This document shows, in pieces, positions 5,525 to 13,999 of a DNA stretch of 35,516 bases. This stretch comes from Candidatus Peribacteria bacterium. Lineage in GTDB: Bacteria; Patescibacteriota; Gracilibacteria; UBA1369; UBA12463. Below the pieces are notes generated by a model. That model worked only from the letters and a program-made list of their open reading frames with translations, did not search any database and had not been told where the DNA came from. The stretch lies in NCBI GenBank assembly GCA_943349045.1, contig CALQZC010000007.1:1-35516 (forward strand), written 5' to 3'. Every line of letters starts with the position of its first letter. Position 1 is the first letter of the stretch. Both the position numbers and the translations under genes were made by a program.

Positions 5525-7243
5525 CTACGACGCCTGACTGAACGCATTGATAAACGCTCGTGTCTTCGGACCGATAGTTCCGGCACCCATTTCACTCTCA
5601 GAAGCGATAATTCGATTGGCCTTCTGGAAAGTAATCAGCGCCTTTCGGCTCTCGTCGGTCATAGTACCTGTGACGTGCTGAGTCTGGAGGAATCCCTTTG
5701 CTTGGAGAAATTTTTGAACCTTCAGAAGTTCAGTATCCAGCGACTCCGAAGGAGCAGTCGCATTGGCAATCATAGGAGCTGTTGATCTTCCATTTTTCAG
5801 CGCGATGGTTTTGATGGTGTGAAATCGTGATGCAATAATCGCATTCATTCGCTCGCGGGTACTCGACTCAAAGGTCGTAGCACCGCTGTCGGACTCGACC
5901 GTCGCGAGCCCCTGAGATTGTTTGAATTTGAAAACAGCGTGGGCGGTTGCAGGACCATAGAAGCCAGTTGGATCGATACGCAAGTAGTTGAGCTTCATGA
6001 GCTCCTGCTGGAGCTGTCGAACAGCAATACCGGTGCTGTTGAGTGCGAGATCTTGAACGAGATATGAGGGAACATCCACGATCACGACCGCACGTGAGTC
6101 GCCAATCGATGCCATATATTTCGTCTCAAGCGCCGCCTTGGTTCGTAGGCCGAAGTATCCAGCACCTCGCTCATTATCAGTTTTGACGACACGCTGCTCC
6201 TTTTGAAATTGAAGAAGTGCTGCCTCAGTCTGTTCATCGAACGTTCCGGTGATTCCGACATCATATCCCAGAGATCGGAGAATATGCTGAAGCTTCAAGA
6301 CATCCTCACCTCGCTCACCACGTCCAGCCTGTCGAACGGGGAGTCGTGCCTTTCGTCGTTCATGAACAGCCTTCTCGAGAGCCACTCGAGTTGCAGGACC
6401 CGTGTGTCCGGCTCCAAGTTCGAGACCGCTATCAAAGAGATTCTGTGCCTTCTGAAATGCATACACAGCCTCCTTGGTTTCATCTCCATAGAAACCATCG
6501 ATGGCACTCTTATAATAATCAAGGAAACTGAGTGCCTGCTGAACCTTCACGACCGACTCGCCACTACTCATGTACCAGACATCCTCTGGAAACATTGGTG
6601 GCTTCACCACAACAGGAACCACGTTCTTCTGTGAAGGTGGACGTGAAACCGAGGAGGCAATTCGTTCGCTCTCATCATAGTTACTGAGTTGAATATCCTC
6701 GCGGATAGAGGCGTCGACACCATAAATAGTGACCTTCACCGTTCGTCGTCCCCAGCCCAAGGCCCGTCGAAGACCCTTGTCCCCGAAGCCCATCCAGATA
6801 TCGAGACGATCATGTCGACCATTCTGCGCGGAAGAGACGATCGCTCCACCACGGTCATGGACGGCTACCGTTCCAACACCAGGAATCATTAACTTCGTTC
6901 CAAACGCATAGGTCTTTGGTGCGGCAACCATACCCGGGTAGACCGGCGTACCATCAGCCCCATTCGTACCGCGTCCATTGAGTCGAATATCAGACTCATA
7001 GCTTCCCGTCACGTACTTCTCTTGATTCGGTAAGGGAGAATAATAGGCAGTGATATCGAGAATTTTTTCCTGTGGAAACTGAGGTGCAGCCGGCACCGTC
7101 ACGGGAATTGAAGTTTCAACCTTCACCTCTGGAACCGTCTCGGCCTCCTGCGCAAAAGCAACGAGTCCATTGAAAGAGATAGCCAGGATGAAACTGACAA
7201 TAAGGAGATGGGCACCCGGAGTATATAGAGGACGATTCGCCAT
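5525..7243 (-). CDS. Secreted protein with 3D domain and multiple peptidoglycan-binding (PG_binding_1) repeats
   Basis: Signal peptide; VYPGMVAAPKTYAFGTKLMIPGVGTVAVHDRGGAIV...RHDRLDIWMG (3D domain); repeats such as VVKVQQALSFLDYYKSAIDGFYGDETKEAVYAFQKAQNL and DVLKLQHILRSLGYDVGITGTFDEQTEAALLQFQKEQ. Confidence 0.88.
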   Translation of the reverse strand: MANRPLYTPGAHLLIVSFILAISFNGLVAFAQEAETVPEVKVETSIPVTVPAAPQFPQEKILDITAYYSPLPNQEKYVTGSYESDIRLNGRGTNGADGTPVYPGMVAAPKTYAFGTKLMIPGVGTVAVHDRGGAIVSSAQNGRHDRLDIWMGFGDKGLRRALGWGRRTVKVTIYGVDASIREDIQLSNYDESERIASSVSRPPSQKNVVPVVVKPPMFPEDVWYMSSGESVVKVQQALSFLDYYKSAIDGFYGDETKEAVYAFQKAQNLFDSGLELGAGHTGPATRVALEKAVHERRKARLPVRQAGRGERGEDVLKLQHILRSLGYDVGITGTFDEQTEAALLQFQKEQRVVKTDNERGAGYFGLRTKAALETKYMASIGDSRAVVIVDVPSYLVQDLALNSTGIAVRQLQQELMKLNYLRIDPTGFYGPATAHAVFKFKQSQGLATVESDSGATTFESSTRERMNAIIASRFHTIKTIALKNGRSTAPMIANATAPSESLDTELLKVQKFLQAKGFLQTQHVTGTMTDESRKALITFQKANRIIASESEMGAGTIGPKTRAFINAFSQAS

Positions 7244-7414: not shown

Positions 7415-9964
7415 TTAGAAGCCAAACGGATCAGCTGGAGGGGGGAGTTTTGCCGCTCCACCAGAACCTCCCGACAAGCCGAGTCGTCGGATAATTTCTC
7501 GGTCAACGAAGTCCTTATCTCGACCATACTTCAGGCGTGAAAGCTGTTTGAAGGCCTCAGCGGCTTTCTTGTCACCCTGTTCCAGATAAGGATTTAAAGG
7601 AGTGATACTAAACGGTCGAGAAGGTTGCGTATCGATCGAGAGCTTCATCACCGCCTTGAACTTATCCAGATTCACCATATCTTGGTCACTGAAGACCGGA
7701 GCCATTTCCTTTGCCATGTACTCGGCATCCTGCGCACCTATTTTATAGGCCAAAATTGAACCGACGTTACCAAAGATCGCCTCCTTAATGCTCGAACCCT
7801 TTTTATTCAAACCTCCACCCTTGTCCTCGAGCTGGGCCAAATACTGGTGAGCGACCGCGAGACCCAGGCGATACTTACGAGCCTCAGAGAGAATCACTTC
7901 AATCGAGTCAGTAACGTAGTTCTGGAACTCATCGATATAGAGGAAGAAGTCGCGAGGCTTTTTTCCGGTCTTCAATATTTTCTGTCTCCCGAGTGCCGCC
8001 ATCTGAATCTTCGACACCATAATCAAACCGAGAAGCTTCGAGTTCATCTCACCAGTTTCCCCCTTAGAGAGATTCACGAGAAGGATCTTTCCATTCTCCA
8101 TCACATCAGCAACATTGAAGGCCGACTTCGCCTGACCGATAATGTTACGCATCATCGTATTCGTGACGAACTGACCGAATTTCGCCGCCAAGTACGGAAT
8201 CATTTCTTGCTTTTCACGCTGACCCGTCTTCGCCATCTGGTTATCCCAGAACGACTTCACGATCGGATTCGTCACCTTTTCAGTTTTGTACGCCGCATAC
8301 TCATCATCCGTGAAGAGACGCACGATATCGGTAATAGAGCCACCCTCAGGATCGGACATCAAAGTAAGACAACCGTTTCGGAAGTAATCCTGAATACGGG
8401 GACCAAAGATTTCTTCACCGAACAATTTGATCATAATGTTCATCGCCTCCATCGAGACGAGCTCTTTTTCTTCCCATGAGTCACCCTCGAGCAGGTTCAA
8501 GCCCATCGGTCGATCCATATCACCAGGGTTGAAGTAAATCACATCATCCGCACGCTCTCGCGGAATGAACGGCATGATATCTTCAATCAAACTTCCGTGC
8601 GGGTCGATAATCGCAAGTCCATCACCATTTCGGAGATCCTGTCGGATCATCGCCTGGAGAATCGAAGACTTACCCGTACCCGTCTGACCGATGACGTAGA
8701 AGTGTCGGAATCGATCATCTCGCTTCATGCGAATCTCTTTCGTCACGCCTCGATAGGTGTTGTGGCCGAGAAGAATTCCCTCGGTTGGAATATTTGGTGG
8801 AGCCGGCGCAACTTTATAGTTCTGCCAGACGATATGCGGATTCATATTGTATCGGATGCTCGGGAGATGATAGAGCGATGCAAGATCCTCAGATGAGAGA
8901 ATCATATGACGCTTCCCCTCGAGCGGATGAAGATCACGAAACAGGCTACGTCGGAATCGTCGATAGATGAAGTCCTTCACGAGCTTGTCGACGGAGTGGT
9001 ACTTCGAATACTCGAACGCATTTCCATTGGAAAAATCAAACTGACCAAACGCCTTATGAATATTTGAGACATTCATTTTTGCCGCACGAAGTGTTGGTGC
9101 ACTACAGACAATTCGAATGACCGTATCAAAACCAGGATGCGAGTTTTTTTCATCGAGCGCCTTGATCTCTTCTTCTCCAGCTGCCGTCACGCGGTTCTGC
9201 TCTTCTGGATGGTCTTTCTTTTCATGATGCATGAGGAGATCGAGAATAGCCGCAATCCAACTCAACGGATTGTACCAGGCAAGACCAGAGTGCTTTTTGT
9301 TTTTTGAGCGTTCCTGAGCGATTTCTCGGCCCTCATGCTGCCAATGATTATTGACGGGTTTGATGAGAATCTGAATCGCCGCACCCTCACTATTTTCAAA
9401 TTTTGAGAGCGCATTCACGATCGCATTGAGCGGATCAGAGTTGAGACGATTATAATTTTTAATCGGCAGATGATAGTCCTCCTCAAGTTCAAGGTAGCAG
9501 CCATACACCTCTGAGTCGGGCTTGAAGATATTGTAGTCCATCACCTTTTCGATGTGACAGTCAGTATAGAAGCTCGTAATCTGCTTTTCCAGAAACACGA
9601 CGAGGTCACGAGGAACTCCCATGAAAAAGAGAATTTCCCCATTCACCACCGCATACTCCAGCGAAAGATAGTCCTGTCCCATCCAGTGATACTTCCAACT
9701 TTTGTCGTACATACTATGCAGCGACTCATAGAAGTGGGTCATGATACCGATAATCTCCTTGAAGCTTTTCTGGGATGAGTACGTCTGCGTCTCCTTTTCC
9801 ACATCATCCTTCGACTCCTTTCTCGGCACACGTATTTGCAAAAACACCATGTCCCTCATTCGATGTGAGTCATAGTGATGATGAATAACATAGTGCACCA
9901 GCTCGTACAGTCCGAAGCCGGCTACCGCGATCCCAATAAGCGTAAATGCGAGTTCAATATTCAT
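7415..9964 (-). CDS. TraD/TraG/VirD4-like type IV secretion-type DNA-binding ATPase
   Basis: N-terminal TM; RHFYVIGQTGTGKSSILQAMIRQDLRNGDGLAIIDPHGSLIEDIMPFIPRERADDVIYFNPGD (Walker A); DFFLYIDEFQNYVTDSIEVILSEARKYRLGLAVAHQYLAQL (Walker B/sensor). Confidence 0.9.
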   Translation of the reverse strand: MNIELAFTLIGIAVAGFGLYELVHYVIHHHYDSHRMRDMVFLQIRVPRKESKDDVEKETQTYSSQKSFKEIIGIMTHFYESLHSMYDKSWKYHWMGQDYLSLEYAVVNGEILFFMGVPRDLVVFLEKQITSFYTDCHIEKVMDYNIFKPDSEVYGCYLELEEDYHLPIKNYNRLNSDPLNAIVNALSKFENSEGAAIQILIKPVNNHWQHEGREIAQERSKNKKHSGLAWYNPLSWIAAILDLLMHHEKKDHPEEQNRVTAAGEEEIKALDEKNSHPGFDTVIRIVCSAPTLRAAKMNVSNIHKAFGQFDFSNGNAFEYSKYHSVDKLVKDFIYRRFRRSLFRDLHPLEGKRHMILSSEDLASLYHLPSIRYNMNPHIVWQNYKVAPAPPNIPTEGILLGHNTYRGVTKEIRMKRDDRFRHFYVIGQTGTGKSSILQAMIRQDLRNGDGLAIIDPHGSLIEDIMPFIPRERADDVIYFNPGDMDRPMGLNLLEGDSWEEKELVSMEAMNIMIKLFGEEIFGPRIQDYFRNGCLTLMSDPEGGSITDIVRLFTDDEYAAYKTEKVTNPIVKSFWDNQMAKTGQREKQEMIPYLAAKFGQFVTNTMMRNIIGQAKSAFNVADVMENGKILLVNLSKGETGEMNSKLLGLIMVSKIQMAALGRQKILKTGKKPRDFFLYIDEFQNYVTDSIEVILSEARKYRLGLAVAHQYLAQLEDKGGGLNKKGSSIKEAIFGNVGSILAYKIGAQDAEYMAKEMAPVFSDQDMVNLDKFKAVMKLSIDTQPSRPFSITPLNPYLEQGDKKAAEAFKQLSRLKYGRDKDFVDREIIRRLGLSGGSGGAAKLPPPADPFGF

Positions 9965-12351: not shown

Positions 12352-12741
12352 ATGACATATATGGCAAAGGATTTTACAAAATGGCATAAATTGAAATCGC
12401 GATTGGATAGTAGACAAGGAACTGCTTCATTTAACGAACGAGAAATATGGTGGTGTTCAGCAGGTATGAATATTGGGAATGAAACAGATGGGAAGAATGA
12501 ATATTTCGAACGTCCAATGCTCATAATTCGAAAATTAAGCAGGGAGATATTTTGGGCCATGCCGCTTACAACAAGAATAAGAAAAGGGAGATTTTACTAC
12601 ACATTCATGTATAAGAAATCGCAACAAACGGTGATTTTATCACAATTAAAAGCTTTAAGCTGGAAAAGACTCCAAAGGCCAATGGGGAAAATTGACCCAC
12701 AAATTTTCCGAGAAATTAAGAGAGCAGCAGGAGTAGTATAA
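12352..12741 (+). CDS. PemK/MazF-family toxin-like protein, no adjacent antitoxin ORF
   Basis: FNEREIWWCSAGMNIGNETDGKNEYFERPMLIIRKLSREIFWAMPLTTRIRKGRFYYTF...TVILSQLKALSWKRLQRPMGKI matches the PemK/MazF layout (W near N-term, RPxLIIRK, PLTT, SQLKxLxxKRL). Start at 12352 or 12361. Confidence 0.75.
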   Translation: MTYMAKDFTKWHKLKSRLDSRQGTASFNEREIWWCSAGMNIGNETDGKNEYFERPMLIIRKLSREIFWAMPLTTRIRKGRFYYTFMYKKSQQTVILSQLKALSWKRLQRPMGKIDPQIFREIKRAAGVV

Positions 12742-12771
12742 TAAAAAAGGACTCTTCTTACGGCAGAGTCC
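12742..12771 (-). terminator. Rho-independent terminator of the candidate small RNA
   Basis: Minus strand GGACTCT GCCGTAAGA AGAGTCC TTTTTTAT: 7-bp perfect stem and T6 tract. Confidence 0.8.
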
Positions 12772-12878
12772 CCAGTGCCAAGTGGCAATTATACCTCCAC
12801 TACGATCTAACCCGTAAGTCGTAATGAAAGCGAAGCGGAATCCTTTCGGAAACCTCGAGTGCCTCGGCTGGCCATAAC
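12742..12878 (-). ncRNA. Candidate structured small RNA with own promoter and intrinsic terminator
   Basis: Minus strand: promoter TTGACT-17-TATACT (12913-12885), then about 136 nt without a convincing ORF. Contains a 12-bp stem CUUUCAUUACGA/UCGUAGUGGAGG (four G-U pairs), a UCC-GAAA-GGA hairpin, long-range CCA-GCCGAG/CUUGGC-AC-UGG pairing, and terminator GGACUCU-GCCGUAAGA-AGAGUCC-UUUUUU. Confidence 0.72.
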
Positions 12879-12884
12879 AAGCGA

Positions 12885-12913
12885 AGTATAGCAAAACCAA
12901 GACCACAAGTCAA
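12885..12913 (-). promoter_or_regulatory. Sigma70-type promoter of the candidate small RNA
   Basis: TTGACT (12913-12908), 17-nt spacer, TGC-TATACT extended -10 (12890-12885). Confidence 0.75.
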
Positions 12914-13279: not shown

Positions 13280-13999
13280 GTGCTCTATAAAAACGATATT
13301 ATAGCGAATTTTCCAGAAGATTTTTCCTGGATGAAAAAAATCCTGACGAATATCTGGTATAAATTTGGAAGTACGATAATTCACACAAGAGAGAATAACC
13401 TCTCAAGCCGAGATAAAAGAAACGCAAGAAAAGAGCTTGAGCCGGGTGACGTTATTCTCGTAGGAGCACTGCGAAGAATGCATAGCCTCTATATAGGTGG
13501 AATTTTTACCCATGCGCTTATGTATGTAGGAGCAGGAATGTGTATCCATGCGATCGCCCATGGGGTTGGCACCGTTTCATTGCATGATGTTTTGAGTGAA
13601 TATGATACAATGGCTATCTTGCGACACAAAAAGCGGAATAAAGAGAAGATTAAAAAAGCTATCCAATACGCAGAGCAGCAAATCGGAAAACCATTTGATT
13701 TCACCTTTGAGAATGATGCAGATAAGCTCTATTGCACTGAGTTACTCCAGCATGCATTCACAAAAGGGCACATGGGTATGAAGAAAATAGCAAAAAAAGA
13801 CATGCTCCATCCTATGGATCTTTTGAAAGGTTCATTCAAAACCATCTTCACATCACACAATATCAAGGAGTCAGAAAAAGGGTTGGTCTATCATTCCAGT
13901 AATCATCCTCAAGGCCTACACTGGTTTATGATACATGCTGCTAAAAAAGGAGTCATGATGCTCAAAAAGATCATGAATCTCAATCACTACAAGAATTAG
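13280..13999 (+). CDS. YiiX/YebB-like permuted papain/NlpC-P60-fold amidase
   Basis: LEPGDVILVGALRRMHSLYIGGIFTHALMYVGAGMCIHAIAHGVGTVSLHDVLSEYDTMAILRHK...IQYAEQQIGKPFDFTFENDADKLYCTELLQHAF: GDV..H.A..VG..IHA and Y-C-TELL motifs. Confidence 0.72.
   Translation: MLYKNDIIANFPEDFSWMKKILTNIWYKFGSTIIHTRENNLSSRDKRNARKELEPGDVILVGALRRMHSLYIGGIFTHALMYVGAGMCIHAIAHGVGTVSLHDVLSEYDTMAILRHKKRNKEKIKKAIQYAEQQIGKPFDFTFENDADKLYCTELLQHAFTKGHMGMKKIAKKDMLHPMDLLKGSFKTIFTSHNIKESEKGLVYHSSNHPQGLHWFMIHAAKKGVMMLKKIMNLNHYKN

Follow-up and report, generated by a model that had tools for sequence, protein, structure and literature searches.

What does a small RNA gene do when it converges on a MazF/PemK-like toxin gene that lacks a protein antitoxin? 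The question is raised by the window, a 35,516-nucleotide stretch of DNA that is part of contig C7 of a 1.01-Mb genome (G000). The original prediction placed a single small RNA gene on the minus strand and guessed that its product was a partner or antitoxin of the neighbouring orphan toxin. The locus comprises the following features.

12361..12741, plus strand: MazF/PemK-like toxin gene, 126 aa (in-frame ATG also at 12352), assigned by Pfam, HMM and fold
12885..12913, minus strand: sigma-70-type promoter of the RNA, with TTGACT (12913-12908), a 17-nt spacer, TATACT (12890-12885) and TGn before the -10 box
12742..12878, minus strand: predicted RNA of ~136 nt, start near 12878, delimited by its promoter and terminator; z of the fold -2.8
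12743..12748, minus strand: T-run (T6) of the terminator, read from the sequence; a single base separates it from the toxin stop codon (12739-12741)

The predicted minus-strand promoter, TTGACT-17-TATACT with TGn, was found as described, and its place and spacing are kept in homologues. The terminator, predicted as a 7-bp stem and T6 adjoining the toxin stop codon, is likewise in place (stem 12771-12765/12755-12749, 9-nt loop, T6 at 12748-12743); our scan overlooked it because it permits loops of only 8. Taken alone, the window promoter does not exceed chance expectation: 2 such sites were found, and shuffles give 2.8. The minimum free energy (MFE) fold of the 139-nt RNA, at -47.7 kcal/mol (z -2.8), beats 199 of 200 shuffles. 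A search of the region against Rfam returned no match even at E<=10, which agrees with the earlier remark that it was not recognised as 6S, SRP RNA, tmRNA or RNase P RNA, and these housekeeping RNAs were rejected. A peptide-coding reading was also set aside: the minus-strand open reading frame at 12655-12906 has its GTG start codon upstream of where the RNA is predicted to begin, and the ~50-nt homologues of the RNA are too short to hold an ORF. The small RNA gene is real as a locus; its transcription has not been shown. Next to the RNA locus, the plus strand encodes a YiiX/YaeF-like permuted papain amidase (Peptidase_C92; 13280-13999). Elsewhere in the window, the minus strand at 7415-9964 is predicted to encode 849 aa with type IV secretion coupling-protein/HerA-like domains, beside a peptidoglycan-binding protein (5525-7243).

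The toxin matches Pfam PemK_toxin (PF02452) at E 1.1e-7 and 32.5 bits, above the cut-off of 23.1, and B. subtilis MazF/EndoA at E 6e-7 in an HMM comparison. Its AlphaFold model has a pLDDT of 87, and the best 50 Foldseek matches to it are all MazF-type toxins. The catalytic residues are Arg51 and Thr70, numbered from the ATG at 12361; in the columns aligned with B. subtilis MazF Arg25 and Thr48, all 28 sequences carry R, and 25 carry T and 3 carry S. The family differs from canonical MazF in an N-terminal helix with the motif W-x3-K, in which W8 and K12 are invariant; the model has no other extra domain. By sequence and by predicted fold, then, the toxin is a MazF. Neither PADLOC nor NCBIfam has a specific model for the family, the sole match being generic MazF. 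Across 100 loci we found no conserved upstream protein that could be an antitoxin, and no upstream ORF family was common to more than two toxins, in keeping with the earlier claim that the toxin has no protein antitoxin. Broken or truncated copies (L056, L059 and L164) occur, as expected of toxins. One further family toxin (L184/L091, G234:C6:40185-40568) has a single in-frame TGA in its N-terminal part and is either a broken copy or a case of recoding.

When the 139-nt RNA was searched by blastn against genomes of the order, only L003 was a true homologue; the match at L002 lay inside an ORF and the remaining matches were due to chance. At this congeneric locus (L003/L033) a PemK-like gene is immediately followed by the RNA gene, which is encoded on the other strand, has a promoter and a terminator to itself and measures only ~50 nt. 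With one convincing homologue in hand, we gathered relatives of the PemK gene instead of the RNA: 12 of the 89 genomes of the order contributed 33 copies, and 80 further loci were taken from the 356 relatives that a public genome collection yielded. The 3' flanks of nearly every locus hold a promoter, a short leader, a hairpin, a linker and a second hairpin with a T-run, always in convergent orientation, and the RNA ends at or slightly past the toxin stop codon. The original prediction had proposed looking for homologues downstream of PemK-like genes in relatives, and there they were, strongly conserved. The family extends across Patescibacteria and to Alphaproteobacteria and Saprospiraceae MAGs and viral contigs.

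The RNAs fall into two classes. Class A has a (U)ACAAAU leader, hairpin 1, a CCGAG-like linker and hairpin 2 with the terminator, and its hairpin-1 stems include GGCC/GGCC, UGCC/GGCA, GGC-UUCG-GCC, GGAC/GUCC and UGGC/GCCA, among others. Class B has a UACUUU-like leader, a CGGG/CCCG or CGAG/CUCG hairpin, CGA and hairpin 2. Both hairpins covary strongly, as a check put forward with the original prediction had asked. In class A, two-sided changes affect 10 of 11 pairs (85 cells against 19.8 in shuffles; 99.3% paired) and in class B 8 of 12 pairs (56 against 17.6; 98.8% paired); in slid controls the signal collapses for both. These alignments were fitted to the covariance-model structure, which biases the counts towards that structure; the variety of hairpin-1 stems is evident in the raw sequences too. 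Covariation backs two nested hairpins only, and no specific search for pseudoknots was made. A promoter with at least 9 of 12 matches stands at the RNA start in 89% of 81 homologous loci, against 5% of control positions, and in 71 of the 72 loci with a good promoter 10-13 nt separate the end of its -10 box from hairpin 1; with this spacing fixed, the transcript should begin at the conserved leader. ACA is present in 49 of 79 class A leaders. Rfam gave nothing at the RNA position in 19 homologous loci at E<=1 or in 20 at the gathering score. The family is large and previously uncatalogued. Most loci hold a single unit; two units stand as separate genes at L061, L064, L082, L098, L107 and L053. 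Tandem pairs at one toxin (these six loci, L042 and L218) often differ in sequence type. At L100, L104, L109, L189, L201 and L203, whose toxins mostly cluster on the tree, hairpin 1 is lengthened by an inserted longer stem.

Seen against this family, the window RNA consists of two copies of the ~50-nt unit of 5' leader, hairpin 1, linker and hairpin 2 (terminator). Scores are from covariance model R1, built from six other loci, and its refinement R2, whose seed likewise left the window out.

12832..12881, minus strand: RNA unit 1 (R1 18 bits, E 0.067 over 370 kb; R2 16.7 bits, E 0.015)
12872-12861, minus strand: hairpin 1 of unit 1, GCC-AGCCGA-GGC, followed by the linker ACTCGA
12854-12837, minus strand: hairpin 2 of unit 1, GGTTTCC-GAAA-GGATTCC, with a 2x2 mismatch and no T-run
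12793..12831, minus strand: spacer hairpin between the units, 12-13 bp with G-U pairs, from the MFE fold; no homologous column in the family
12744..12796, minus strand: RNA unit 2 (R1 23.8 bits, E 0.0011 over 370 kb; R2 24 bits, E 1.1e-4)
Parts of unit 2, minus strand: leader GTATAAT; hairpin 1 TGCC-ACTT-GGCA (12787-12776); linker; hairpin 2, which is the terminator stem (12771-12749)

The earlier description of one RNA was thus right about the gene and missed that it is a two-unit version of a short RNA family. Unit 1 keeps a -10 to hairpin-1 distance of 12, the mode of the family, and is degraded in its hairpin 2; because that hairpin is mismatched and has no T-run, transcription probably reads through unit 1 and the spacer hairpin into unit 2. 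A congeneric locus (L032) also has two units within one transcript. The 12-bp stem predicted between 12819-12830 and 12794-12805 is present in the MFE fold, with three G-U pairs and not the four described, a fourth arising only if G12831-U12793 is included. A long-range pairing proposed to close the 5' part on the 3' part survives in the MFE fold as 4 bp, but it competes with the local hairpin 1 (2.6 kcal/mol apart) and has no support in the family, which favours local hairpins; it is probably not the native fold.

How tightly is the RNA tied to the toxin? In 89 genomes, a strong RNA match lies within 150 bp of 28 of 33 family toxins and of none of 67 other PemK/MazF genes (Fisher p 5e-20); the five family toxins without one include the window's own and a degraded copy. 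Conversely, the class A and B models yielded 32 strong matches in these genomes, and for 31 of these a family toxin is no more than 300 bp away. The one left (G028, L164) adjoins a toxin remnant (tblastn E 9e-21), so that the RNA has outlived its toxin there, and an RNA also persists at the broken toxin of L059. In a phylum-wide sample of 192 genomes, reading of the flanks placed the RNA at 24 of 25 family toxins and at 0 of 4 canonical MazF genes. All five toxin relatives on viral contigs have the RNA, four of them adjacent and one (L219) slightly further off with a modest score (E 0.009); a pattern scan of viral sequences for one RNA type gave no match. No RNA is visible at L199, a family member, and none was found at L138; its presence could not be judged at L121, because of a contig end, or at L096, where the frame was not parsed. 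The R2/R3 matches at L179 (a tRNA) and at L211, L212 and L213 (inside ORFs) were discarded as false positives. From these sequence comparisons, the RNA gene has been shown to be almost obligately and specifically paired with one MazF-like toxin family.

That the matches are merely strong terminators or chance hairpins might be argued from hairpin 2, which is an intrinsic terminator, and from the window promoter, which alone does not exceed chance. The genome-wide search refutes this: the models miss the other terminators of 89 genomes, their strong matches all lie by a family toxin or remnant, and promoter, leader and hairpin 1 are conserved with covariation, leaving the idea a chance close to nil. 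Membership of the MazF lineage would also suit a type II toxin whose unrecognised protein antitoxin lies elsewhere while the RNA does another job; without an upstream ORF family common to more than two toxins, and with an RNA that is nearly universal, we regard this as extremely unlikely.

Some units stand apart from the usual arrangement. At L164 (1501-1710; G028:C1:82299) a class B RNA is retained next to the broken toxin remnant, and at L178 (1037-1094; G234:C8:240836) an orphan unit with a promoter has no toxin remnant nearby, a complete pair being present elsewhere in that genome. Extra class A units lie upstream of class B toxins in two genomes (G048:C4:152714-152768, L214 815-869; G042:C2:66443, L154 1501-1556). 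These toxins also own a class B RNA, and the loci are composite, perhaps with captured antitoxins.

RNA and toxin have also changed together. Mapped on a tree of 121 toxins, the hairpin-1 type (assigned by pattern, with some manual correction) requires 23 changes, against 76.2 with shuffled labels, and none of 200 shuffles was as low. Class B forms one clade on the toxin tree (99/89). Toxins of one genus are scattered over the tree, each with its matching RNA type, and multi-copy genomes carry several toxin types, again each with its matching RNA (in G004, UGCC, UUCG and two B pairs). The clade of the window toxin takes in Doudnabacteria, Woesebacteria, Uhrbacteria and Nomurabacteria. As inferred from these phylogenetic patterns, the toxin–RNA pair moves together between hosts. 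Coevolution this tight suits any obligate complex, including one in which the RNA, as a cofactor, guide or sensor, activates the nuclease or directs it, for instance in phage sensing, and does not simply inhibit it; the extra divergent units at L061, L064, L082, L098, L107, L053 and L042 could be read the same way. However, RNAs that outlive broken toxins suit an antidote better than an activator, and the toxin has no added domain beyond the N-terminal helix. We consider such a role quite unlikely.

In nearly every locus the two genes converge and the RNA terminator reaches or overlaps the toxin stop codon, as would be expected if the RNA gene repressed the toxin in cis only, through colliding transcription or an antisense overlap with the toxin 3' end. 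Such repression could do without covariation in hairpin 1, a conserved leader and RNA types specific to toxin types, and it fits poorly with extra units upstream of toxins (G048, L066), by a dead toxin (L164) or alone (L178); we consider repression in cis only unlikely. A small RNA adjoining a toxin gene could also act in trans, pairing with the toxin mRNA to block translation as in type I systems. Predicted duplexes with the whole mRNA show slight cognate preference at most (mean rank 0.412), but those with the toxin start region show none (mean rank 0.474), and what is conserved and covaries is structure, not complementarity, which makes antisense control very unlikely and direct protein binding the likelier mode. 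Because start-region pairing is absent, units occur in extra and orphan positions and the RNA outlives broken toxins, we infer an antitoxin that acts on the protein. We think it likely that the product of 12742-12878 (minus strand) is the RNA antitoxin against the MazF-like ribonuclease encoded convergently at 12361-12741, without data on transcript, toxicity, neutralization or binding. The original guess of a partner or antitoxin is thus supported by conservation, covariation and the absence of an Rfam match, its activity remaining to be shown; the RNA could still regulate toxin transcription by collision or serve as a cofactor.

In the antitoxin mechanism that we propose, a strongly promoted small RNA would fold into units of leader, hairpin, linker and hairpin. 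These would attach to the toxin protein, probably in the region of the N-terminal W-x3-K helix, and block its active site. Known MazFs cut at ACA or UACAU. The UACAAAU leader resembles such target sites and, being single-stranded, could occupy the active site as a substrate would, either intact or cleaved; substrate mimicry is a lead and not a result. If the RNA were lost or diluted, the toxin would be released to cleave cellular RNA, as in addiction or phage-triggered shutdown. A fuller version, in which a convergent two-hairpin RNA replaced the protein antitoxin of a MazF-lineage ribonuclease and, besides inhibiting it, presents a substrate-like leader and serves for sensing (of phage, for example) or as a targeting ligand, with extra units giving cross-immunity to foreign toxins, is speculative and we consider it unlikely.

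Patescibacteria carry many PemK/MazF genes that appear to be orphans without an antitoxin, and a dedicated RNA partner would explain how they are tolerated. The RNA family that it adds is large and uncatalogued, 356 toxin relatives having come from one genome scan. The pairs make switching of antitoxins between protein and RNA testable and, with RNAs of only ~50 nt and many natural variants, are usable for work on specificity. A literature search on PemK or MazF with an RNA antitoxin in CPR/Patescibacteria, which left preprints and most subscription journals out of reach, returned nothing relevant. To our knowledge there is no earlier case of the MazF lineage proper under RNA control, and the present pair would be the first.

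Among known systems, type II MazEF/PemIK shares the toxin fold and active-site residues, and the MazF/PemK domain criterion is met, whereas no conserved upstream protein family that could supply the adjacent antitoxin exists across the 100 loci, the toxin has the extra W-x3-K helix and the partner is an RNA. Type I systems also have an RNA gene that overlaps or adjoins the toxin gene on the opposite strand; here the toxin is a 126-aa folded ribonuclease and not a membrane peptide, and the criterion of cognate antisense pairing at the start region is not met (0.474). The likeness to type III (ToxIN/CptIN/TenpIN) is closer in kind: an endoribonuclease of MazF/Kid-like fold and a small structured RNA gene with an intrinsic terminator, the RNA sometimes in more than one unit. 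Type III RNAs are pseudoknotted repeat arrays upstream of the toxin in one operon (PMC5086642). By contrast, the toxin studied here matches MazF proper with the catalytic Arg/Thr kept, and its RNA is convergent, has its own promoter and is mostly one unit of two plain hairpins. Proven pairs of a MazF-fold protein and an RNA have a pseudoknot or a ToxI-like repeat array; this RNA family has no such array, and the pairs supported by covariation form two nested hairpins only. PDB profile matches of the toxin contained no ToxN/CptN homologue up to E 1, while MazF relatives were present. Because toxin homology, an upstream RNA in one operon with a terminator between (unmet in nearly all loci) and a tandem repeat array all fail, we do not file the pair as type III. 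Outside ToxIN, the nearest mechanistic precedent, by analogy, is AbiF/RCd22, in which a small RNA with two short hairpin motifs neutralizes a protein by direct binding (PMC12373285). The likeness lies in a small RNA with short hairpin motifs (Rfam RF03085, abiF motif); AbiF, however, belongs to the Abi_2 family and its RNA is upstream and co-transcribed, whereas the present RNA has no RF03085 match. The best reading, with antitoxin activity and binding untested, is an RNA-antitoxin system that follows a type III-like logic in a new architecture, with a toxin of genuine MazF lineage and a convergent, mostly single-unit RNA.
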